DNA from: Rhodoferax sp.
GTDB taxonomy: Bacteria > Pseudomonadota > Gammaproteobacteria > Burkholderiales > Burkholderiaceae_C
Length of the DNA: 35,505 nucleotides
Reading direction: 5' to 3'
Assembly (NCBI RefSeq): GCF_011391645.1
Contig: NZ_JAABQC010000019.1
Coordinates: 1 to 35,505 of the forward strand
Shown: positions 11,408 to 22,004 of the stretch, in pieces
How the letters are laid out: each line of letters begins with the position of its first letter
Numbering within the stretch: the first letter of the stretch is position 1
Program-made: the position numbers and the translations under genes
Notes under the pieces: model-generated
The model's database searches: none
Seen by the model: the letters and a program-made list of their open reading frames with translations, nothing else
Told to the model about the DNA's origin: nothing

Positions 11408-14236
11408 TCATGGCGAGGGCAGGGCCGTCGTGGCAAGCATGCGATGCAACTGCGGCAGGCACGAGCCGCAGTTGGTGCCGCATTTCAGACTGGTTTGCAA
11501 GGCGGTCAGGCGCTGCGCAGGCGCGGCAGTGCTTTGCGCCAGGTGCTTGGCAATGGCCAGGTCGGTCACGTTGAAGCAGGCGCAGACCTGCTGGCCGCGT
11601 GACACTACCGACACGGGTGGCGTGGCGCCAGGAATCAGCAGCGCCCGGCCGTAAGAATGGGCGGGAAGGGATTCCTTGAGCAGGGTGCTGATCCAGCTTT
11701 GGGCGCTGATGTCGCCTGCCAGCAAGAAGCTCTCCAGCTCGGTTTGGGTGTCGGTCTCAATCAGCCGGGCGGCGCGGCGCTGGCCGCGTCGGGCGTCTGA
11801 ATAGCGCAGCACTTCCGGGCCCTGAATTTGGAGCAGCCGCTCAATTTGTGCCAGCAGCGCAGGCTCTGGCGCGGCATGGCGTGCGGCGCGAAACAACAAG
11901 CCGCTGCGCTCACCCTGTGCGCTTGCGGTCGTGCTGGAAAACGGCACACAGGTGGCAAAGTCGAACTGCGCCATCAGGCTTTGCAGCGCCGTCCTGGCCG
12001 CGATGCCCTGCGATTGCGGCAGCCACGCCATGGCCAGAAGCTGCCAGGGCATCTCGGCTTTGAGGATTTTGACCGGCGTGTGTTTGAACTCGGGTTGCCT
12101 GGAGTCGGGGCAAAAGCTCCCGCTGGTCAGGGCATTGACGCCGCCCAAGCGTTCACCCTGGGCGCTTTGGCCGCTCAGGAACTCTTCGCCCCAGTGCATC
12201 GCCATGAAAGCCTGGTTCAAGCCAAGCTCCCGGCTGGCCTGGACCGGCACCAGCACCGAACCCCGGGGGCTGGTGAGGTGGACCAGGTCGCCATCCTTGA
12301 GTTGACGCTGCAGCATGTCTTGCGGGTGCATTTGCACGCAAGGCTCGCTGGCATGGCCAAATAACTGGCCGAGCGTGCCGGTGCGGCTCATGCCGTGCCA
12401 TTGGTCGCGCAGGCGGCCGGTGGTGAGCGCGAACGGATAGCGCGCACTGCGCGGCTCAGCCACGCTCTGGTAGGCCGCGCTGATGAAACGCGCCTTGCCG
12501 TCTGCGGTGGGGAAAATGCCGTCCTCGTAAAGCCGGGCTTTCCCATGCAGTTCGCCCTCTCTCAGCGGCCATTGTTGCGGGGCTGCCTCGAGCATGGCAT
12601 AGCTCATGCCGGTGATGTCGAGGTCGCGGCCCCGGGTGGATTCACGGTGTTCCAGCCAGACGGCTTCTGGCGTTTTGTAGGGGAAGAGGGGGGCCAAACC
12701 CGCATGGATTGGCGTTCGCTGCGGCTTCAACAGCAGCTCCAGCCGTTGGGCCAGGTCGGTGGCAATCTGCCAGTCGTGTCGTGCCTCGCCGGCGGGGGGA
12801 ACCGCAGCGCGAACGCGGCTGATACAGCGCTCGGAGTTGGTCACCGTGCCCTCCTTTTCGCCCCAGGTAGAGGCTGGCAGCAGCAGGTCGGCATAGGCAC
12901 AAGTGGCGGTGCCGGCATAGGCCTCCTGCATCACCACAAATTCTGCGCGCTCCAGGGCCCGGCGCACCAGGGTCTGGTTGGGCATGGATTGCGCCGGGTT
13001 GGTGCAGGCAATCCACAGGGCCTTGATTTCACCATCGGCGGCGGCCTGAAACATCTCCACCGCCGTCTTTCCGGCCTGCCGGGGCACACTGGGCAAACCC
13101 CAGAGCGCGGCTATTTCAGCGCGATCATCGGCATTTTTCAGGTCGCGGTGGCCACTGAGCAGATTGGCCATGCCACCCACCTCGCGCCCGCCCATGGCGT
13201 TGGGCTGGCCGGTGAGGGAAAACGGCCCGGCACCCGGTTTGCCGATTTGCCCGGTGGCCAGATGCAGGTTGATGAGCGAGGTGTTTTTGGCGGTGCCGCT
13301 GCTGGACTGGTTCAGGCCCTGGCAGTACAAACTCAGCGTGGGCGTGCGGGTCTTGCCGCCGGCCGACACGCCGGCAAACAGGCGCGTGGCTTCAAGCAGC
13401 GCCTCCTGGCTGATGCCGCAGGTGCGCGCCACCACCTCGGGCGTGCAGTCGCGCAGCCCTGTTTTGAGCGACTCGAAACCGCGGGTGTGGGCGGCCATGT
13501 ACGCGGCATCCAGCCAGCCATCCCAAAGCATCAGGTGCAACATGCCGTGGTGCAGCATGACGTCGGTGCCGGGCTGAATCTGCAGGAACAGGTCGGCCAT
13601 GTCCGCAGTGTCGGTGCGCCGCGGATCAACCACCACAATCTTCAGGGCCGGGTTGGCGCGACGGGCGTCTTCGATGCGCCTGAACAAAATCGGGTGCGCA
13701 TAGGCGGTGTTGCTGCCGGTGATGAACAGGGTGTTGGCGTGCTGGAGGTCGTCATAACACGCGGGTGGCGCGTCCATGCCGAGGCTCTGCTTGTAACCCG
13801 CCACGGCGCTGCTCATGCACAGGCGCGAATTGCTGTCGATGTTGTTGCTGCCGATCAGGCCCTTGGCGAGCTTGTTGAAGACGTAATAGTCCTCGGTCAG
13901 CAGTTGGCCCGAGATGTAAAAACCCACGGCATCAGGACCATGTTGTTGGATGATGCCGGCAAAACGGTTGGCTGCCTGGTCAAGGGCGCTGTCCCAACTG
14001 ATGCGTTGCGCCGGCGCGCCGCGCTGGCTGCGTTGCATCGGGTAAAGCAGCCGCGCCTGGGCCGTGATGTCGGCGCTGGCCGTGAGGTGCAGGCTGGCTC
14101 CTTTGGTGCACAGGCGCCCAAAATTGGCCGGGTGGTCCGGGTCGCCACGCACGCCGGTGATCTGCTTGCCTTTTGACTCAATGATCACGCCGCAGCCAAC
14201 GCCGCAATAGGGACAGGTGGAGCGGGTTTCTGTCAT
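11408..14236 (-). CDS. nasA: Assimilatory nitrate reductase catalytic subunit
   Basis: A 942-residue cytoplasmic molybdenum (bis-MGD) enzyme reducing nitrate to nitrite for assimilation. It has no Tat signal. The N-terminal [4Fe-4S] ligands are C8, C11, C15 and C43 (TCPYCGVGCGV and LCTKG). The molybdopterin domains carry NNIDSNSRLCMSSAV with the conserved Cys expected to ligate Mo, then FITGSNTAYAHPI and KIVVVDPRRTDTADMAD. The C-terminal MGD-binding domain includes LTTGRLRDQWHGMSRTGT. The last 80 residues add a BFD-like [2Fe-2S] domain (VCACFNVTDLAIAKHL and KCGTNCGSCLPQL), as in Klebsiella NasA. It is the last gene of the nrt-nir-nas operon, 22 bases after nirD. No NasC/NasB-type NADH dehydrogenase subunit is encoded nearby, so the electron donor is unclear. 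Confidence 0.92.
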   Translation of the reverse strand: MTETRSTCPYCGVGCGVIIESKGKQITGVRGDPDHPANFGRLCTKGASLHLTASADITAQARLLYPMQRSQRGAPAQRISWDSALDQAANRFAGIIQQHGPDAVGFYISGQLLTEDYYVFNKLAKGLIGSNNIDSNSRLCMSSAVAGYKQSLGMDAPPACYDDLQHANTLFITGSNTAYAHPILFRRIEDARRANPALKIVVVDPRRTDTADMADLFLQIQPGTDVMLHHGMLHLMLWDGWLDAAYMAAHTRGFESLKTGLRDCTPEVVARTCGISQEALLEATRLFAGVSAGGKTRTPTLSLYCQGLNQSSSGTAKNTSLINLHLATGQIGKPGAGPFSLTGQPNAMGGREVGGMANLLSGHRDLKNADDRAEIAALWGLPSVPRQAGKTAVEMFQAAADGEIKALWIACTNPAQSMPNQTLVRRALERAEFVVMQEAYAGTATCAYADLLLPASTWGEKEGTVTNSERCISRVRAAVPPAGEARHDWQIATDLAQRLELLLKPQRTPIHAGLAPLFPYKTPEAVWLEHRESTRGRDLDITGMSYAMLEAAPQQWPLREGELHGKARLYEDGIFPTADGKARFISAAYQSVAEPRSARYPFALTTGRLRDQWHGMSRTGTLGQLFGHASEPCVQMHPQDMLQRQLKDGDLVHLTSPRGSVLVPVQASRELGLNQAFMAMHWGEEFLSGQSAQGERLGGVNALTSGSFCPDSRQPEFKHTPVKILKAEMPWQLLAMAWLPQSQGIAARTALQSLMAQFDFATCVPFSSTTASAQGERSGLLFRAARHAAPEPALLAQIERLLQIQGPEVLRYSDARRGQRRAARLIETDTQTELESFLLAGDISAQSWISTLLKESLPAHSYGRALLIPGATPPVSVVSRGQQVCACFNVTDLAIAKHLAQSTAAPAQRLTALQTSLKCGTNCGSCLPQLHRMLATTALPSP

Positions 14237-14258
14237 GGCTGCGTTTGTGCGGTCGGTT

Positions 14259-14642
14259 TCAGGCGCAGGTCGTGCGGCGCGCCGGGCCCGCCACCGGTCG
14301 GGTTTGGTCGGTGGCGTGGCTGGTCAGCTCGGCGGTGTTCAGAAACACCTGGCCGTCTTCCAGCTTTACCTCGAAGCGCGGCGTGCAGCCTTCATCGGGC
14401 GCAGCCGCCTGGCCGGTGCACAGGCCAATCGTCCAGTTGTGCAAGGGGCAGGCCACGCTGGTGCCAAACACAATGCCCTGGCTCAGCGGCCCACCCTTGT
14501 GGGGGCAACGGTCGAGCAGGGCAAACACCTCGTCCTGGTCGTTGCGAAACACCGCCACGTCCAGGCCTTGCTTGCGCGCCACGCGGCGCGAGCCCAGCAC
14601 CGGAATGTCGTCGATGCGGCAGATGGGGGTCCATTCATTCAT
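14259..14642 (-). CDS. nirD: Nitrite reductase [NAD(P)H] small subunit with intact Rieske motif
   Basis: A 127-residue Rieske-fold small subunit partnering NirB. It contains RCPHKGGPLSQGIVFG and VACPLHNWTIGL, giving C46-x-H48, 16 residues, then C65-x2-H68: the complete Rieske [2Fe-2S] ligand set. The E. coli NirD subunit lacks these ligands, so this belongs to the cluster-bearing NirD/NasE type. The start at 14642 has AAGGA eight bases upstream. It lies 11 bases after nirB and 22 bases before nasA, so the three are certainly one transcript. Confidence 0.92.
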   Translation of the reverse strand: MNEWTPICRIDDIPVLGSRRVARKQGLDVAVFRNDQDEVFALLDRCPHKGGPLSQGIVFGTSVACPLHNWTIGLCTGQAAAPDEGCTPRFEVKLEDGQVFLNTAELTSHATDQTRPVAGPARRTTCA

Positions 14643-14653
14643 GTTGGTTTTCC

Positions 14654-17098
14654 TTAAACGCTCAGGGCGTCAAACTGGCGGGTGTCGACGGCGGCCTTGT
14701 CAAACTCGAACCAGGGGTCGGGCTCGCCATCCAGGGCGAATTGCAGGTTTTCCCAGAGTTCCTTGCGGCCGGCGTGGTCTTCGACAATGCGTTTCTTCAC
14801 GTAGTCCAAGCCGACGCGATTGACGTAATGCACGGTGCGCTCCAGGTACCAGCCCTCGGTGCGGTACAGCTCGCAGAAGGCGCCGGTGTACTCCAGCACC
14901 TCGGCCGCCGTCTTGACCTTGACCAGAAAGTGTGCCACCTCGGTCTTGATGCCGCCGTTGCCCGCCACATACATCTCCCAGCCGGAATCCACACCGATGA
15001 TGCCGACGTCCTTGATGCCGGCCTCGGCGCAATTGCGCGGGCAGCCTGACACAGCGAACTTGACCTTGTGCGGCGCGTACATGCGCCACATCGCGCGCTC
15101 CAGGTCTTTGCCCATCTGGGTGCTGTCTTGTGTGCCCATGCGGCACCACTCGCTGCCGACACAGGTTTTCACCGTGCGCAAGGCTTTGGCGTAAGCATGG
15201 CCAGACGGCATGCCGATGTCTTTCCAGACGTTGACCAGGTCTTCTTTCTTCACACCGAGCAAGTCAATGCGCTGGCCGCCGGTGACCTTCACGGTGGGAA
15301 TCTTGTATTTGTCCACCACATCGGCAATACGGCGCAGTTCGCTGGCTGTGGTTTCGCCGCCCCACATGCGCGGAATCACACTGTAGGTGCCGTCCTTCTG
15401 GATGTTGGCGTGCGAACGCTCGTTGATGAAGCGGCTTTGTGGATCGTCTTTGGCCAGTTTGGGCCAGGTGCTGATCAGGTAATAGTTGATGGCCGGGCGG
15501 CAGCTGGCGCAGCCGGTGGGAGTCTTCCATTCCATGAAGGCAAACACGTCGGCAATCTTGAGCAGCTTGTTGGTCTTGATGGCATCGCGGACCGCCTGAT
15601 GGCCGTGGTCGGTGCAAGCGCACATGGCCTTGGTTTTGGGTGTGACCGAGTAGTCGGCACCCGCGGTGAAGATCAGCAACTGCTCGACCAGACCGGTGCA
15701 GGAGCCGCAGGATGCGCTGGCCTTGGTGTGTTTGCGTACCTCGTCCAGCGTGAACAGGCCTTTTTCACGGATCGTCTTGCAGATGGTGCCCTTGGTCACA
15801 CCGTTGCAGCCGCAAACCTCGTCGCTGTCTTTCATGGCAGCGGCCTTGTTGTGACCTTGGTGGCCGGCATCGCCAATGTTGGATTCGCCAAACATCAGCT
15901 TGTCGCGGATATCGCCCACCGGGCGGCCGTCGCGCAGCAGTTTGAAGTACCAGCTGCCGTCCACCGTGTCGCCATACAGGCAGGCGCCCACCAGTTTGTC
16001 GTCTTTGAGAACCAGCTTTTTGTAGACCCCGCCTTTGGGGTCGCTCATGATGATTTCCTCAAAGCCTTCGCCACCGGCAAAGTTACCCGCTGAAAAAAGG
16101 TCAATGCCGGTGACCTTCAATTTGGTCGACGTCAGCGAGCCCACATAACGGCCAATGCCAAACTGCGCCAGGTGGTTGGCCGCCACCTTGGCCTGCTCAA
16201 ACAGCGGCGCCACCAGGCCGTAAGCGGTGCCACGGTGCGCGGCGCATTCGCCCACGGAGTAAATGCGGGCGTCGGTGATGGTTTGCAGCGTGTCGTTGAC
16301 CACAATGCCCTTGTCGCAATGCAGGCGCATGCTCTGGGCCAGTTCCACGTTGGGGCGAATGCCAACCGCCATCACCACCAGATCCGCGGGCACTTCACTG
16401 CCTTCTTTGAACTTGATGGCAGTGACCCGGCCATCGGGCCCGCCGACCAGCTCCTGCGTTTGTGCGCCCATCAAGAAGTTCAGGCCACGCGCTTCCAACG
16501 ACTTTTGCAGCAGTTTGCCGGCCACATCGTCCAACTGGCGGTCCATCAAGGTGGGCATGACGTGCACCACGCTCACCGTCATGCCGCGCAGCATCAGGCC
16601 GTTGGCGGCCTCCAGCCCCAGCAGGCCGCCGCCAATCACCACGGCGTGTTGGTACTGTGTGGCCGCTTCGATCATGGCCTGGGTGTCGGCAATGTCGCGG
16701 TAGGCAATCACCCCCTGCAGGTCCTTGCCGGGGATCGGCAGCATGAAGGGGTTGGAGCCGGTGCACAGCAGCAGCCGGTCGTATTCGGCGCTGGTCGTCT
16801 CGCCGTTGGCATTCGTCGCATGCACCAGGCGCTTGACCCGGTCCACCGAGGTCACGCGCCAGCCGGCATGCAGGGTGATGTGGTTGTCTGTGTACCAAGA
16901 CCAATCGTTGAGAACGATCTCGTCCAGGGTTTGCTCGCCCGCCAGCACCGGGCTGAGCAGAATGCGGTTGTAGTTGGGGTGCGGCTCGGCGCCGAACACC
17001 GTGATGTCATACAGCTCGGGGGCAATCTTCAGCAGCTCTTCCAGGGTGCGCACACCGGCCATGCCGTTGCCGACCATCACGAGTTTCATTTTTTTCAT
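14654..17098 (-). CDS. nirB: Nitrite reductase [NAD(P)H] large subunit
   Basis: An 814-residue cytoplasmic enzyme reducing nitrite to ammonium with NAD(P)H. Domains in order: an FAD-binding fold (VMVGNGMAGVRTLEEL, residues 7-22), an NAD(P)H fold (VVIGGGLLGLEAANGL, 153-168), a first BFD [2Fe-2S] domain (C429, C431, C464, C467) and a second (C493, C495, C530, C533). The sulfite/nitrite reductase half carries the siroheme-[4Fe-4S] ligands C646, C652, C686 and C690 (TCVGSEWCRMG and GCPRNCAEAG). Length is slightly below the 830-850 usual for NirB but all domains are present. AAGGAAAG lies just upstream of the ATG. It follows the GAF gene by 19 bases and precedes nirD. Confidence 0.95.
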   Translation of the reverse strand: MKKMKLVMVGNGMAGVRTLEELLKIAPELYDITVFGAEPHPNYNRILLSPVLAGEQTLDEIVLNDWSWYTDNHITLHAGWRVTSVDRVKRLVHATNANGETTSAEYDRLLLCTGSNPFMLPIPGKDLQGVIAYRDIADTQAMIEAATQYQHAVVIGGGLLGLEAANGLMLRGMTVSVVHVMPTLMDRQLDDVAGKLLQKSLEARGLNFLMGAQTQELVGGPDGRVTAIKFKEGSEVPADLVVMAVGIRPNVELAQSMRLHCDKGIVVNDTLQTITDARIYSVGECAAHRGTAYGLVAPLFEQAKVAANHLAQFGIGRYVGSLTSTKLKVTGIDLFSAGNFAGGEGFEEIIMSDPKGGVYKKLVLKDDKLVGACLYGDTVDGSWYFKLLRDGRPVGDIRDKLMFGESNIGDAGHQGHNKAAAMKDSDEVCGCNGVTKGTICKTIREKGLFTLDEVRKHTKASASCGSCTGLVEQLLIFTAGADYSVTPKTKAMCACTDHGHQAVRDAIKTNKLLKIADVFAFMEWKTPTGCASCRPAINYYLISTWPKLAKDDPQSRFINERSHANIQKDGTYSVIPRMWGGETTASELRRIADVVDKYKIPTVKVTGGQRIDLLGVKKEDLVNVWKDIGMPSGHAYAKALRTVKTCVGSEWCRMGTQDSTQMGKDLERAMWRMYAPHKVKFAVSGCPRNCAEAGIKDVGIIGVDSGWEMYVAGNGGIKTEVAHFLVKVKTAAEVLEYTGAFCELYRTEGWYLERTVHYVNRVGLDYVKKRIVEDHAGRKELWENLQFALDGEPDPWFEFDKAAVDTRQFDALSV

Positions 17099-17117
17099 AG
17101 TCTTTCCTTGTTCACCG

Positions 17118-18005
17118 TTAAAGGGTCAGGCCAAGCACGGCGGTGACACGGCCCTGCATGGCTACCGGCACCAGCAAGGTTTGGCCATCCAGCTTGGGAA
17201 CGCCCGTGCTGAAGACTTGTCCAGGCAAACTACCCGCGAAGGTCAGTTTGTCTTGGGTGGCGCTCAGCTCGGCACCATCGTCTTCAGAAAAGCCAAAGCT
17301 GTGCACCAAGTGGGACTGCATCGCGTCGGGCGCCCACACGTCCACGCGCCGCGCAATCGGGGTGGCCAGAGCGCTCAAGAAGGCCAGCACATAGTTTTGG
17401 CCATCGGCACTGCTGCAAGGCACGGCAAAACCCCGGTTGATGCCCACCTTGACGGCGCTGTCAGCACGCAAAAAACCGGAGCCCCGGCCCAGGTCGGGCA
17501 TGAACACCGGTGCCTGCGTGCCCCAGGCCCGCCCGGGCAAGCCGGTGCCTTCGCGAAAACTGGTGTGGCGTGACAAAAACTCAAAGGTGTCGCCGGTGGT
17601 GCCGTAATAGCCGTCTTGCAGGTTCAGGTCAACGTTTTCCTCGGGATCGTTGTGCCACAACTCGATGGCGCCCGCGTGCTCGTCGTCACCGCCACAAAAC
17701 AGCACGGTGACGGCACGCAATTGGTCGCTCACAAAGCTGGGCAAAGCCACCGCGCTGGTCAAACCGTGCGCCTGGGCCGCGGCGGCGCGGCGAAACAGCG
17801 GCGCCTGCAGCGCGGTCAGCATCACCGGATGGCCGGTGTCCCAGGCCTGGCCGGGAAGACCCTCGCCGCGGCCAAAACACAAATTTTCACTGCTGGCTTG
17901 CAGGCGGTTGGCATCGCCATAATAGCCGCCGCCAAACTCCAACAACGTGCCGGTGACGTCAGGCAGCCAGAATTCAACAGCCCGGATAAAAGTTCGTTTG
18001 TTCAT
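17118..18005 (-). CDS. GAF-repeat protein of the nitrate assimilation operon
   Basis: A 295-residue soluble protein without signal peptide or membrane segment, built of repeated GAF-like units. GYYG plus EGLPGQAWDTGHPVML occurs at residues 27-63, GYYG plus TGLPGRAWGTQAPVFM at 132-169, and a shorter third copy has GSLPGQVFSTGVPKLD at 258-273 followed by the GAF-type end LLVPVAMQGRVTAVLGLTL. The G-LPG-x-x-W/F motif with a downstream P-V is typical of GAF domains in sensory proteins, but there is no attached kinase, cyclase or DNA-binding domain. Its place between the nitrate transporter ATPase and nirB suggests sensing or modulation of nitrate/nitrite assimilation. That is inference only; I know of no defined function. 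Confidence 0.75.
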   Translation of the reverse strand: MNKRTFIRAVEFWLPDVTGTLLEFGGGYYGDANRLQASSENLCFGRGEGLPGQAWDTGHPVMLTALQAPLFRRAAAAQAHGLTSAVALPSFVSDQLRAVTVLFCGGDDEHAGAIELWHNDPEENVDLNLQDGYYGTTGDTFEFLSRHTSFREGTGLPGRAWGTQAPVFMPDLGRGSGFLRADSAVKVGINRGFAVPCSSADGQNYVLAFLSALATPIARRVDVWAPDAMQSHLVHSFGFSEDDGAELSATQDKLTFAGSLPGQVFSTGVPKLDGQTLLVPVAMQGRVTAVLGLTL

Positions 18006-18023
18006 GGTGTTCTTTACGCAATC

Positions 18024-18860
18024 TCAAGCGGCTTTTTCGACGTGGCTTTGCCGGGTGTACAAAAAGTCAATCACCGCCTTGCGGTACTGCACATACTGAC
18101 GGTCTTCGGCCAGTGCCACCCGGTTGCGCGGGCGCGGCAGCTTGACGCTCAACACCTCGCCGATGGTGGCGCTGGGACCGTTGGTCATCATCACAATCTT
18201 GTCCGAGAGCAGCACGGCTTCGTCCACATCGTGTGTCACCATCACCACGGTGCTGTGGGTGCGCGCCACGATCTCCAGCAACTCGTCTTGCAGCTTGGCG
18301 CGGGTCAGGGCGTCAAGGGCGCCAAAGGGCTCGTCCATCAGCAGCACCTTGGGCTCCATGGCCAGCGCCCGGGCAATGCCCACGCGCTGCTTCATGCCGC
18401 CGGAGATTTCACCGGGGCGTTTTTGTGCGGCAGGGGTCAGGCCGACCAGCGCCAGGGCGGCGTCAGTGCGTGCCCTCAATTGCACCTTGTTTTCGGACGG
18501 CGCCCCGGTGGAGCGGTTGGCAGCGCCAAACACGCGCTCCACACCCAGGTAAACGTTCTCAAAGCAGGTCAGCCAGGGCAACAGCGAGTGGTTTTGAAAC
18601 ACCACGGCGCGGTCCGGGCCAGGGCCGGCAATTTCGCGGTTGTCGCATAGCAGATGGCCTTGCGTCGGCACGGTCAAGCCGGCAATCAGGTTCAGCAGCG
18701 TTGATTTGCCGCAACCCGAGTGGCCAATCAATGCCACAAATTCACCCTTGGCCACCGTCAGATTGACGTTTTGCAGGGCGCAAAACGGGCCTTTTTTGGT
18801 TTTGAAGGTTTGCTCGACACCGACGATGTCGATGAACTTGGTGGTTTGGTTTTCGTTCAT
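18024..18860 (-). CDS. nrtD: Nitrate/nitrite ABC transporter ATP-binding protein
   Basis: A 278-residue ABC ATPase of the NrtD/NasD/SsuB/TauB family. Walker A is GHSGCGKST (46-54), the Q-loop is VVFQNHSLLPWL (about 87-97), the signature is SGGMKQR (153-159), Walker B is VLLMDEP (172-178), and the switch His is H210 (MVTHDVDEA). The Q-loop LPW motif is characteristic of the nitrate/taurine/sulfonate branch. It is a single-domain ATPase, unlike NrtC of cyanobacteria, which carries an extra binding-protein domain. Its ATG overlaps the permease stop codon by four bases, so the two are translationally coupled. Confidence 0.93.
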   Translation of the reverse strand: MNENQTTKFIDIVGVEQTFKTKKGPFCALQNVNLTVAKGEFVALIGHSGCGKSTLLNLIAGLTVPTQGHLLCDNREIAGPGPDRAVVFQNHSLLPWLTCFENVYLGVERVFGAANRSTGAPSENKVQLRARTDAALALVGLTPAAQKRPGEISGGMKQRVGIARALAMEPKVLLMDEPFGALDALTRAKLQDELLEIVARTHSTVVMVTHDVDEAVLLSDKIVMMTNGPSATIGEVLSVKLPRPRNRVALAEDRQYVQYRKAVIDFLYTRQSHVEKAA

Positions 18861-19789
18861 GACTTCACCTCTTCAAATGTGAACGCGGTGGCGATTTTGA
18901 TCAGGGCGTATTCCAGAATCAGCCCGACGATGCCAATCACAAAAATGGCGATGATGATGTTCTTGACGTTCAGGTTGTTCCACTCGTCCCAGACCCAGAA
19001 GCCAATGCCGACACCCCCGGTGAGCATCTCGGCGGCCACAATCACCAGCCAGGCGGTGCCCACGGCCAGACGCACACCGGTCAGCATGTAGGGCAACACC
19101 GAGGGAAACAAAATCTTGGTGACGATCTTCCACTCGCTCAAGTTCAGCACTCGCGCCACGTTCATGTAGTCCTGCGGCACGCGTTGCACGCCCACCGCGG
19201 TGTTGATGATCATGGGCCAGATTGAGCAGATAAAGATGGTCCAGATGGCAGCCGGGTCGGCGCCCTTAAACACCAGCAGGCCAATTGGCAACCAGGCCAG
19301 GGGCGACACCGGTCGCAGCAGGCTGATCAGCGGGTTGAACATGCGGCTTAAAAATTCAAACCGGCCAATCGCGAACCCGGCCGGAATGCCCACCGCAGCA
19401 GCCAGGCCAAAACCCAGCGCCACGCGCTCCAACGACATCAGGATGTTCCAGCCCAGACCCTGGTCGTTGGGGCCATTGCGGTAAAAAGGGTCGCTGAAAA
19501 TCACCACCGCCTGAGCGAAAGTGTCCGCTGGCGACGGAATGCTGCTGGCGGTTCCGATGGACACCAGTGCCCAGATGCCAACCAGCAGTCCAAATCCGAT
19601 CACGGGCGGCAGCACGGCCAACCACAAGCCACGCCAGTCGTACGGCGGCTTTTGCAAGCTTTTTGGGGTTGCAGCCCTCTTGGTTTCCGCTTGAGCAGTT
19701 GTGTTGTTCATGGTGTTTGATGGGCTGAGGTTGGCCGCAGGCTCAGCGCCTGAGGCTTCCAATGGCGAGTGAAAAATGGCGCTGACCAT
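18857..19789 (-). CDS. nrtB: Nitrate/nitrite ABC transporter permease
   Basis: A 310-residue inner-membrane permease of the NrtB/TauC family. A soluble N-terminal stretch of about 55 residues precedes LWLAVLPPVIGFGLLVGIWALVS, and the EAA-type loop near LLRPVSPLAWLPIGLLVF is diagnostic of nitrate permeases. Further membrane segments include FICSIWPMIINTAVGV and the C-terminal NIIIAIFVIGIVGLILEYALI. The start at 19789 is supported by AAGGAGA six bases upstream; a later in-frame ATG at 19711 has no better site. It lies ten bases after nrtA and overlaps nrtD by four. Confidence 0.92.
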   Translation of the reverse strand: MVSAIFHSPLEASGAEPAANLSPSNTMNNTTAQAETKRAATPKSLQKPPYDWRGLWLAVLPPVIGFGLLVGIWALVSIGTASSIPSPADTFAQAVVIFSDPFYRNGPNDQGLGWNILMSLERVALGFGLAAAVGIPAGFAIGRFEFLSRMFNPLISLLRPVSPLAWLPIGLLVFKGADPAAIWTIFICSIWPMIINTAVGVQRVPQDYMNVARVLNLSEWKIVTKILFPSVLPYMLTGVRLAVGTAWLVIVAAEMLTGGVGIGFWVWDEWNNLNVKNIIIAIFVIGIVGLILEYALIKIATAFTFEEVKS

Positions 19790-19799
19790 GGTGATCTCC

Positions 19800-21044
19800 T
19801 TAAACCTTGACCTTGAACCCGTCGGCGTATTTTTTCGGGTCCTTGCCGTCCCAGACCACGCCGTCGATCAACTTGCTGGTGCGCATCACGTCTTTCGGCA
19901 CCGGCGTTTTGCTGGCCGTGGCGGCTTGTTTGTAGATGTCGATCTGGTTGATCTGTTTGGCCACCGCCAGATAGTCCGGGTGCTCTTTGAGCAAGCCCCA
20001 GCGCTTGTGCTGGGTAAGGAACCACATGCCGTCTGACAGGTACGGGAAGTTGACCGCGCCATCATTGAAAAACTTCATGTGGTTGGGGTCGTCCCACGAC
20101 TTGCCCATGCCGTCCTGGTAGCGCCCCAAAATCCGCTGGTTGATGGCGTCCACACTGGTGTTCACATACGATTTGGCGGCAATGGTTTCGGCCATCTTGT
20201 TCTTGTTCTGCAAGCCCGAGTCAATCCATTTGCCGGCTTCCAGAATGGCGGCGGTGACGGCACGCGCAGTGTTGGGGTACTTCTTGACAAATTCCGCGGT
20301 GGTGCCAAGTACCTTTTCCGGATGGTCCTTCCAGATATCCTGGGTGGTAACCGCAGTGACACCAATGCCGTCGATGATGGCGCGGTGATTCCAGGGTTCA
20401 CCCACACAAAAGCCGTCCATATTGCCAACCCGCATGTTGGCCACCATCTGCGGTGGCGGCACGGTGATGACCTTGGCGTCTTTCATCGGGTTGATGCCGT
20501 TGGCAGCCAGCCAGTAATACAGCCACATGGCGTGGGTGCCGGTGGGAAAGGTTTGAGCGAAGGTGTATTCGCGTTTTTCCAGCCCCATCAGCTTGGCCAG
20601 GCCGACACCATCCACCGCGCCCTTGTCTGCCAGCTTCTTTGACAGGGTGATGGCCTGCCCGTTGTTGTTGAGCGTCATCAGCACCGCCATGTCTTTTTTG
20701 GCGCCACCCACACCCAGGTGCACGCCGTAGATCATGCCGTACAGCACATGGGCAAAGTCCAGCTCGCCATTAACGAGTTTGTCGCGCACGCCGGCCCAAC
20801 TGGATTCCTTGGTGGGGATGATCTTGACACCGTATTTTTTGTCGAGGCCCAGTTCTGCGGCCATCACCACGCTGGCGCAGTCGGTCAGCGGAATGAAGCC
20901 AATCTTGACCTCGGTTTTTTCGGGCGCGTCGGAACCTGCGGCGTAAACCGCTGCGCGCAATGCCGGGCTGATGCCAATGGCGCCGACCGCAGCTGTTTGC
21001 AAGACCGCACGGCGGCTAAGGCTGGGTTTTAGAAAGTCAGTCAT
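19800..21044 (-). CDS. nrtA: Nitrate ABC transporter substrate-binding protein (NrtA/NasF, CmpA family)
   Basis: A 414-residue periplasmic nitrate/nitrite-binding protein. The N-terminus MTDFLKPSLSRRAVLQTAAVG has a twin-arginine motif (S-R-R-A-V-L-Q) and a hydrophobic stretch ending near ALRAAVYA, so it is probably exported by Tat. NrtA landmarks include KIGFIPLTDCASVVMAAELG, GVKIIPTKESSWAGVRDKLVNGELD, HAMWLYYWLAANGINP and MDGFCVGEPWNHRAI. The ATG at 21044 is chosen because AGGAG lies seven bases upstream; an ORF extension to 21110 would run back through the leader terminator. It is the first gene of the assimilation operon, preceded by a sigma-54 promoter and an attenuator. An export signal means it is not itself the cytoplasmic sensor NasS, although the two are homologous. 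Confidence 0.92.
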   Translation of the reverse strand: MTDFLKPSLSRRAVLQTAAVGAIGISPALRAAVYAAGSDAPEKTEVKIGFIPLTDCASVVMAAELGLDKKYGVKIIPTKESSWAGVRDKLVNGELDFAHVLYGMIYGVHLGVGGAKKDMAVLMTLNNNGQAITLSKKLADKGAVDGVGLAKLMGLEKREYTFAQTFPTGTHAMWLYYWLAANGINPMKDAKVITVPPPQMVANMRVGNMDGFCVGEPWNHRAIIDGIGVTAVTTQDIWKDHPEKVLGTTAEFVKKYPNTARAVTAAILEAGKWIDSGLQNKNKMAETIAAKSYVNTSVDAINQRILGRYQDGMGKSWDDPNHMKFFNDGAVNFPYLSDGMWFLTQHKRWGLLKEHPDYLAVAKQINQIDIYKQAATASKTPVPKDVMRTSKLIDGVVWDGKDPKKYADGFKVKV

Positions 21045-21071: not shown

Positions 21072-21132
21072 AAAAAAAGGCGTCCTCACAAGGCTCAACA
21101 CGTTGCACACGTGTCGAGCCTGTGGGGACGCC
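21072..21132 (-). terminator. Intrinsic terminator (attenuator) in the nrtA leader
   Basis: On the minus strand the leader forms a stem of about 24 bp. The 5' arm is 21132-21109 (GGCGUCCCCACAGG, then CUCGACACGU). A five-base loop lies at 21108-21104, and the 3' arm is 21103-21079. One A bulge and one or two wobble pairs interrupt it. It is followed directly by seven U residues (21078-21072). It ends 28 bases before the nrtA ATG and well after the sigma-54 promoter, so it must be overcome for the operon to be expressed. This is the classic arrangement of nas leaders controlled by ANTAR antiterminators. Confidence 0.9.
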
Positions 21133-21139
21133 TTTGTCC
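21126..21139 (-). promoter_or_regulatory. Hexaloop hairpin H3 overlapping the terminator stem
   Basis: GGAC-AAAGGC-GUCC on the minus strand: a 4-bp stem with a six-base loop having A at position 1 and G at position 4, the ANTAR loop signature. Its loop and 3' arm use the first bases of the terminator 5' arm, so the two structures cannot form together. That is how the second hairpin works in known ANTAR leaders. Confidence 0.5.
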
Positions 21140-21153
21140 GGGTCTGACCAAAT

Positions 21154-21171
21154 TCACCCGCCGTTGGATGA
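21154..21171 (-). promoter_or_regulatory. ANTAR-type hexaloop hairpin H2 in the nrtA leader
   Basis: UCAUCC-AACGGC-GGGUGA forms a six-base-pair stem (one U-G wobble) with a hexaloop showing A1 and G4. It is separated from H1 by ten bases and from H3 by 14. Confidence 0.65.
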
Positions 21172-21181
21172 TTTCAATCAA

Positions 21182-21199
21182 AAAACCATCGCTGGTCTT
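21182..21199 (-). promoter_or_regulatory. ANTAR-type hexaloop hairpin H1 at the 5' end of the nrtA leader
   Basis: AAGACC-AGCGAU-GGUUUU forms a six-base-pair stem (one G-U wobble) with hexaloop A1/G4. It begins within a base or two of the transcription start predicted from the sigma-54 promoter, so it would be the first structure of the RNA. Confidence 0.65.
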
Positions 21200-21210
21200 G
21201 GTTATTCACA

Positions 21211-21227
21211 TGCAATCTGCGTGCCAG
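21211..21227 (-). promoter_or_regulatory. Sigma-54 (RpoN) promoter of the nrtA-nasA operon
   Basis: Minus-strand CTGGCACGCAGATTGCA matches TGGCACG-N4-TTGC(A/T) fully, with GG at -24 and GC at -12. The predicted start of transcription is near 21200. This implies activation by an NtrC-type enhancer-binding protein, as for Klebsiella nasF. Confidence 0.88.
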
Positions 21228-21356: not shown

Positions 21357-22004
21357 TCAGCCCAGCAAATCGGCCACATCAAGCATGCGCTGCGCCACTT
21401 CGGACAGTTTCAGGCCCTTGTCCATCGCCGTTTTGCGCATTTTTTTGAAGGCCTCGTCTTCGCTCAGGTTCTGGCGTTGCATCAGCAGTCCCTTGGCCCG
21501 GTCGATCAGTTTGCGGTCCTTGAGTTCGGCACTGAGCTCATCGCGCTCGTTCTGCGTGCTGGCCAGGGTTTGCAGCAGGGCCTGCTCGTGCTCAAAGCGC
21601 GCCAGCGCCACGTCCAGAATTGGCCGGATGCGCTCGGCCGACAGACCTGCCACGATGTAGGCCGACACGCCTGCGGCCACGGCATCCCTGACATGGCGGG
21701 TGTCATCGTCGTTGGTGAACATGACAATCGGGCGGCGCTCGTCGCGCGTCGCCATCACCACATGCTCCAGCGCGTCCCGTGCATCGCTCTCGGCATCCAC
21801 AATGATCAGGTCGGGTTGCAGTTGGGCGATGCGTTCGGCCAGAAAGACATCGGCGGGCAGACTGGCGATCAGGTTGAAGCCGTTTTCCAGCAAGCCGATG
21901 CGCAGGCTACGCGAGCGATCGGCCTGTCGAATGGCCTGCCCATCTTCCGGATCAGTGATGTCCAGGTCGGGCACGACAACAACGATTCGAAGACTTGCAT
22001 TCAT
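21357..22004 (-). CDS. nasT: ANTAR-domain transcription antiterminator NasT
   Basis: A 215-residue regulator. The N-terminal half is a receiver-like domain (LRIVVVVPDLDI, LQPDLIIVDAESD, PIVMFTNDDDT, AGVSAYIVAGL). The phospho-acceptor Asp position is held by D in IIVDAE, but the acidic pocket is atypical, so phosphorylation is doubtful, as for other NasT proteins. A coiled-coil linker (FEHEQALLQTLASTQNERDELSAEL) leads to the C-terminal ANTAR RNA-binding domain (LIDRAKGLLMQRQNLSEDEAF then MRKTAMDKGLKLSEVAQRML). Its obvious target is the nrtA leader 150 bases downstream. The partner NasS that normally sequesters NasT until nitrate or nitrite appears is not encoded beside it. The start codon has no Shine-Dalgarno and abuts a hairpin; an in-frame TGA two codons upstream fixes the start. 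Confidence 0.9.
   Translation of the reverse strand: MNASLRIVVVVPDLDITDPEDGQAIRQADRSRSLRIGLLENGFNLIASLPADVFLAERIAQLQPDLIIVDAESDARDALEHVVMATRDERRPIVMFTNDDDTRHVRDAVAAGVSAYIVAGLSAERIRPILDVALARFEHEQALLQTLASTQNERDELSAELKDRKLIDRAKGLLMQRQNLSEDEAFKKMRKTAMDKGLKLSEVAQRMLDVADLLG

Follow-up and report, generated by a model that had tools for sequence, protein, structure and literature searches.

The leader of the nrtA gene in this Rhodoferax strain is a NasT leader of a known kind with an unusual build of three hairpins. From its sequence and predicted folds, and from conservation and covariation among relatives, we infer NasT binding and the roles of the hairpins: The leader rather likely controls the nitrate assimilation genes by antitermination, with the second hairpin (H2) recruiting NasT, the third (H3) acting as the antiterminator, and the first (H1) serving as a structural hairpin at the 5' end. 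The features concerned lie in the window, i. e. the whole stretch of 35,505 nucleotides that was analysed, and read in the direction of transcription they are as follows:

21357..22004, minus strand: nasT, encoding a protein with receiver-like and ANTAR domains (PF03861, 1.3e-21), immediately 5' of the leader
21212..21226, minus strand: sigma-54-type promoter element TGGCACGCAGATTGC (-24/-12), a match to the pattern TGGCAC-N5-TTGC
21183..21198, minus strand: H1, the 5'-end hairpin, with the loop AGCGAU at 21193-21188 and the stem core GACC/GGUU; it folds, and relatives keep its stem but not A1/G4
21143..21182, minus strand: H2, a long imperfect stem with the apical hexaloop AACGGC at 21165-21160, judged by its conservation in relatives the probable NasT recruitment loop
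21126..21139, minus strand: H3, GGAC[AAAGGC]GUCC, loop at 21135-21130, the probable antiterminator hexaloop hairpin (AAAGGC in 30/30 leaders of the genus)
21072..21135, minus strand: intrinsic terminator, supported by fold energies, with a long stem (21135 to about 21076) plus a U7 tract at 21078-21072
19800..21044, minus strand: nrtA-like gene for a nitrate ABC transporter binding protein, the first gene downstream of the leader (NMT1_2, 4.9e-104 over 19800-21041)
11408..19789, minus strand: the remaining gene run, i. e. transporter permease and ATPase, a GAF protein, nirB, a nirD-like ORF and an assimilatory nitrate reductase-like protein (profile matches; nirD-like by eye)

The original prediction of a NasT-type nas leader is borne out by the locus: nasT adjoins the leader and is the single match to PF03861 (ANTAR) in the 2.74 Mb draft genome, and, as in dual-hexaloop leaders, H2 and H3 carry conserved hexaloops with A at position 1 and G at position 4 (A1/G4), and H3 overlaps the terminator. 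The Response_reg match in NasT scores under its cut-off in the profile search. Read from the letters, nrtA starts with the ATG at 21044, with CAGGAG just 5' of it. No NasS partner could be recognised in the genome, which is 93% complete and in which PF13379 finds NrtA and one weaker match on another contig. Within the nitrate run, positions 17118-18005 encode the GAF-domain protein, and one may speculate that it might take the place of the missing nitrate sensor. The search for further NasT targets in the same genome, which is blind to other loop types, gave 12 RACAAMGGCGTY sites (backwards control, 5); among the 11 sites viewed (L404 was left out), only the leader has promoter element and terminator together.

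The promoter element is the single match to the sigma-54-type pattern in the window, yet 47/100 shuffles of the window also contain a match, so that it is the position of the element rather than the pattern match itself that carries weight. The element ends 14 nt ahead of the H1 stem core, and in the three-hairpin leaders of relatives (class A, see below) the distance from the element to the 4-bp core of H1 is 14 nt in 53/76 and 12-16 nt in 72/76 cases. Moreover, it aligns to its counterpart in Rfam RF00625 (P11). By consensus and name, we take the element at 21212..21226 to be of the sigma-54 (-24/-12) type. Sigma-54 promoters have a typical spacing between the element and the start of the RNA, and because of this spacing H1 would lie at the RNA 5' end, with promoter and transcript start just before it.

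Three tandem A1/G4 hexaloops (AGCGAU, AACGGC and AAAGGC), the third built into the terminator before nrtA, had been predicted and are located as claimed; likewise, the terminator stem and its U7 tract are present where expected, and the terminator is strong in the unconstrained fold. At -71.7 kcal/mol (z -7.07; 0/200 shuffles fold as well), this structure of the leader contains the terminator together with H1 and H2. The loop and the 3' arm of H3 are part of the 5' arm of the terminator, with 10 nt common to both, and the proposed folding check with and without constraint gave a preference for the terminator (-69.0 vs -53.8 kcal/mol with H3 forced). Two of the hairpins differ in shape from what had been assumed: H1 of the window is predicted as an A[GCGA]U tetraloop, which is 1.6 kcal/mol better than the hexaloop (-5.5 vs -3.9 kcal/mol), and H2, taken for a short hairpin, caps a long imperfect stem (21182-21143). 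A chance origin of the triple was ruled out: If A1/G4 hexaloops are counted within 130 nt, on stems of at least 4 bp with at least two G-C pairs, 0/5000 dinucleotide shuffles of the leader reach three such loops and 11/5000 reach two. The search of both strands of the window gave no second spaced A1/G4 triple.

For comparison, 238 genomes of the family have an NrtA match, and 110 nrtA leaders were read from the top of this list, so that the sample leans toward close relatives; 26 further leaders of the genus were added, and 132/136 were scored. L045, L054, L106 and L122 were dropped before counting as degenerate or unclear, and L057, L058, L067, L097, L104, L115, L116, L119, L124, L127, L129, L131 and L161 had their loops assigned by eye and their scores added manually. 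We grouped the leaders according to a scheme of our own: (i) Class A (n=78) comprises leaders with three hairpins and A1 in H3; here, A1/G4 is present at H1 in 45, at H2 in 74 and at H3 in 78 leaders. (ii) Class B (n=25) is defined by G1 in H3; this loop has G1 with G4 in 25/25, and A1/G4 is found at H1 in 24/25 and at H2 in 18/25 leaders, a number that could be 20/25 since in L137 and L141 the script took an extra small hairpin as H2 while the later hairpin is A1/G4. (iii) Classes C and C' (n=29) have a single upstream hexaloop hairpin, which is A1/G4 in 28/29. The G4 of H3 is present in all 132 scored leaders. Exactly one upstream loop reads AAHGGC in 69/78 leaders of class A, 20/25 of class B, 19/23 of class C and 4/6 of class C'. 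With kinship uncorrected, this motif is at H2 in 64/78 class A vs 2/25 class B leaders, and at H1 in 18/25 class B vs 7/78 class A leaders. Because of this placement, we regard one strong upstream loop plus H3 as the usual pattern, with the strong hairpin differing by group. A DNA-pattern search for leaders (2/59 loci unscored) required AACGGC at H2 and AAAGGC at H3, and its set is informative at H1 only because the other two loops were fixed by the pattern. The H3 loops of class B are GAUGGC, GACGGC, GAAGGC and GACGAC (L041, L077-L079, L087, L088 and others; 25/132 scored leaders); in folding, GAUGGC closed by G1-C6 as a tetraloop is preferred (-6.0 vs -4.0 kcal/mol), and in such models this pair could close the class B loop to a tetraloop.

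The sequences indicate that H2 and H3 are likely the NasT pair, with H2 as the recruiting hairpin and H3 competing with the terminator. In the leaders of the genus, H2 has A1/G4 in 29/30 and H3 in 30/30 cases, the latter always as AAAGGC, and G4 of H2 is kept in 77/78 class A leaders. In a profile of 76/78 class A leaders, in which high pairing is partly built in because the hairpins were chosen by folding, the pairing of H2 reaches about 15-16 positions from the loop and then fades, mostly above slid controls. Most positions of the H2 stem show 5-6 pair types, with up to six per position. Since the length of the stem is kept but not its letters, the geometry of H2 probably matters. In class A, the linker between H1 and H2 is 1-4 nt in 59/76 leaders, and that between the long H2 stem and H3 is 3-6 nt in 62/76; counted from the short 5-bp apical stem of H2, the linker to H3 in the window is 15 nt. 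Loop spacings of 49, 51 and 57 nt between H2 and H3 occur in three class A leaders, presumably L083, L096 and L050, in which the two hairpins are separated by an additional one that lacks an A1/G4 hexaloop. In L161 (genome G056), H2 is AACCGC and lacks G4, as does H1, making it the sole scored leader (n=132) with just one G4 hexaloop; an error in sequencing or decay of the leader may account for this.

For the still unsettled use of two loops by an ANTAR dimer, recruitment followed by transfer has been proposed (PMC8934654). For EutV, the same source presents one hexaloop as probably bound per dimer, holds that one dimer cannot grip both loops of one RNA, and puts forward a model in which an upstream recruitment hairpin passes the dimer to the antiterminator hairpin (PMC8934654). 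Because of this model, we propose by analogy that H2 recruits and H3 antiterminates: Transcription would begin at the sigma-54 promoter just 5' of H1, the hexaloop on the long stem of H2 would capture a NasT dimer, and H3, transcribed a few nucleotides later, would be the antiterminator hairpin; its loop and 3' arm double as the 5' arm of the terminator. Free NasT on H3 would then block the terminator and allow transcription of nrtA and the downstream genes. H1 would form the 5' end of this RNA, conserved in stem and position, with a drifting loop that in most leaders of the genus takes the form of a GNRA or comparable tetraloop.

The closest solved structure to the NasT of the window is EutV (6wsh/6ww6, 3.3e-17). 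In our own residue mapping, for which the chain index was taken as the published number + 2, the EutV RNA contacts given in PMC8934654 compare with NasT as follows: R142, K143, K149, E160, R168 and M172 are retained as R164, K165, K171, E182, R190 and M194; R replaces K147, F replaces Y164, and N173, R175 and R177 correspond to D, G and K. EutV is described to touch G4 but not A1, and its Met172 may exclude tetraloops (PMC8934654). None of the six retained residues was found to differ in a class-linked way between class A and class B genomes. Residue 186, which corresponds to EutV Tyr164 that stacks on G4, is F in the window, in 24/55 class A and in 0/24 class B proteins. Residues 155-161 form a seven-residue (one heptad) coiled-coil insertion before the ANTAR domain, which is present in 29/69 NasT rows with A1 and 1/24 with G1 in H3, with at least 10 changes on the tree; here and below, the trees are weakly supported in places and the counts of changes cannot separate gain from loss.

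For H1, the stem and the place are kept while the loop drifts. The hairpin is present in 29/30 leaders of the genus (it is absent in L162), and only 14/29 of its loops are A1/G4, which is nevertheless above the chance expectation of 1/16 (binomial test without correction for kinship, p 4e-10). A pair between loop positions 1 and 6 is possible in 20/29 cases (A-U 11, C-G 8, G-C 1), and 16/29 loops form GNRA tetraloops; along the series AGCGAU, AGCAAU, AGUAAU and CGCAAG, the GNRA loop and its closing pair are retained, but G4 is not. Three other leaders of the genus, L142, L144 and L158, retain AGCGAU itself. Between having and lacking A1/G4, H1 switches at least 11 times on the genus NrtA tree (29 rows scored); among 50 class A rows of the NasT tree, it does so at least 12 times vs once for H2. 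In Variovorax, A1/G4 is found in 3/33 H1 loops, and UUCG, GNRA and five-base loops occur; the stem beneath, 5 bp or longer and with varied, compensating sequences, starts 13-16 nt behind the -12 element in 33/33 leaders. The 4-bp core of the H1 stem in class A is 99-100% paired, to which the choice of hairpins by folding contributes, and is mostly GACC/GGUC, with a few compensatory changes. H1 is missing in L162, L046 and L048, all of which keep H2 and H3. Conservation of all three loops in relatives had been set in advance as a test of the prediction; with A1/G4 in 14/29 leaders of the genus and 3/33 of Variovorax, and with no H1 at all in L162, the third loop lacks this conservation. Judged by these sequences, a structural role at the 5' end suits H1 better than NasT binding, and the hairpin most likely shields the start of the RNA or organises it. 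The letters of H1 in the window satisfy both an A1/G4 hexaloop and a GNRA tetraloop; this probably reflects inheritance or chance rather than a working third NasT site.

Outside the genus but within the family, 31/49 class A leaders have an A1/G4 loop at H1, and 22 of these 31 are unable to close a 1-6 pair. These numbers lead us to assume that H1 probably descends from a NasT loop, and in places it may still be one; since 31/49 is well above 1/16, an extra NasT site is plausible in some lineages. It is conceivable, though rather unlikely, that H1 is a working but optional second recruitment site, present in some species and absent from others, and that H1 and H2 together supply H3 with NasT dimers, so that occupancy rises or the response is graded. 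The 45/78 class A leaders with A1/G4 at H1 agree with this, as does the description of freed NasT as oligomeric (PMC3795266), and so do two further groups of leaders. In other families of the order, 60 leaders were fetched and 44 were usable, with two A1/G4 loops upstream of H3 in 14, one in 28 and none in 2; the other 16/60 were left out for want of an H3 with A1 and a terminator, a rule that favours A1. The upstream loops of these families are A1/G4 56 times vs 11 times for the next commonest combination of bases 1 and 4. A Pseudomonas-like genus has P11 matches in 51/56 genomes; in the best 30 of the 51, a long-stem A1/G4 hairpin is present in 30/30, a middle A1/G4 hairpin in 24/30, and H3 as AAAGGC in 30/30, in a search that required AAHGGC at H3. 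A third A1/G4 loop is thus recurrent, yet facultative and differently placed. Against a second recruitment site speak the predicted tetraloop of the window, the pairing of positions 1 and 6 and the drift to GNRA loops within the genus, and the low count in Variovorax; moreover, we saw no link, among few independent pairs, between the state of the H1 loop and the heptad insertion or F/Y at residue 186. A structural H1 remains our preferred reading. A broader version, which we regard as rather unlikely, is that leaders of Burkholderiales and pseudomonads have tandem NasT recruitment loops, one strong (switched between H1 and H2) and one optional, with a constant H3, and that in the window all three bind as a graded relay.

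Three equivalent NasT sites with alternative pairings, as originally envisaged, find no support in this genus, where A1/G4 of H1 is limited to 14/29 leaders and only its stem and place are kept. That NasT bridges either H1-H2 or H2-H3, with the choice deciding the outcome, would suit the nearly fixed loop spacings (H1-H2, 28 nt in 50/76; H2-H3, 28-31 nt in 67/76 class A leaders), and the different placement of AAHGGC in classes A and B, with the class-defining G1 of H3 in the latter, suggests that the lineages differ in their strongest loops. However, the authors of the EutV study hold that a single dimer cannot grip both loops of one RNA (PMC8934654), H1 is absent or not A1/G4 in many leaders that keep H2-H3, and binding to H1-H2 alone would leave the terminator untouched. 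We therefore consider alternative pairings very unlikely. It is highly improbable, too, that NasT works through H1 and H3, with H2 inserted as a spacer whose long stem brings them together: The two-hairpin leaders L067, L071 and L075 have their first hairpin (P1) near the position of H1 and H3 two nucleotides on, and the hand-scored L057 has A1/G4 in H1 and H3 only, but H2 is the best-conserved upstream loop in class A and H1 drifts. The minimal leaders L067, L071 and L075, with a 2-nt P1-H3 linker, come from genomes whose NasT is 73-75% identical to that of the window. The arrangement in which H2 recruits, H3 antiterminates and H1 caps the RNA is the one we retain.

No Rfam family matches the window at its gathering threshold; searches of 20 related leaders up to E 0.1 gave 7 P11 and 8 narK RNA matches, none at gathering. 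P11 (RF00625) matches the window over its full length in cmscan (26.4 bits, E 2.9e-4) and shares with it the sigma-54 element and a terminator-shared GGACAAAGGCGUCC hairpin, but the score is well under the gathering value of 70. P11-type leaders have the long hairpin first and an optional one between it and H3, whereas in the window the optional hairpin is the 5'-most. We take RF00625 P11 to be identical with NalA. NalA, the leader of Pseudomonas nirBD, is described as a sigma-54 leader that is antiterminated by NasT (PMC12830290). A whole-model match to narK RNA (RF03032) includes the promoter element and GACAAAGRCGUC, yet its 22.5 bits are below the gathering value of 43.2. The eut leaders of Enterococcus, which respond to EutV, resemble the window in their two A1/G4 hexaloops, the second overlapping the terminator (PMC3369931, PMC8934654); their linker is given as 5-12 nt (PMC3369931), while leaders of the window type have the long H2 stem as P1, a linker of 3-6 nt in 62/76 and an extra 5' hairpin. 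The nasA leader of Paracoccus denitrificans is likewise a NasT-linked nas leader with hairpins (PMC5424462); there, mutation of HI is reported to lower transcription severely and mutation of HII to have little effect. In contrast to the window, HI and HII are the two mutated hairpins of that leader, and nasS is present (PMC5424462). Our literature search, which covered part of the relevant work, recognised no paper on a third loop in such leaders, and we do not claim that it is undescribed.

Taken across the sequences compared, third loops are real and recurrent in the history of the family, and the third loop of this genus is not conserved. The comparison suggests that in Rhodoferax this loop is optional and that it more likely caps the structure than offers NasT a third grip. 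More than 100 natural leaders, with loops swapped, capped as tetraloops, lost or bearing G1, stand alongside related NasT proteins; they suggest that H3 is indispensable (G4 in 132/132), followed by one upstream loop, mostly AAHGGC, and that the other loop is dispensable. This natural variation points experimenters to the first mutants that are worth making.
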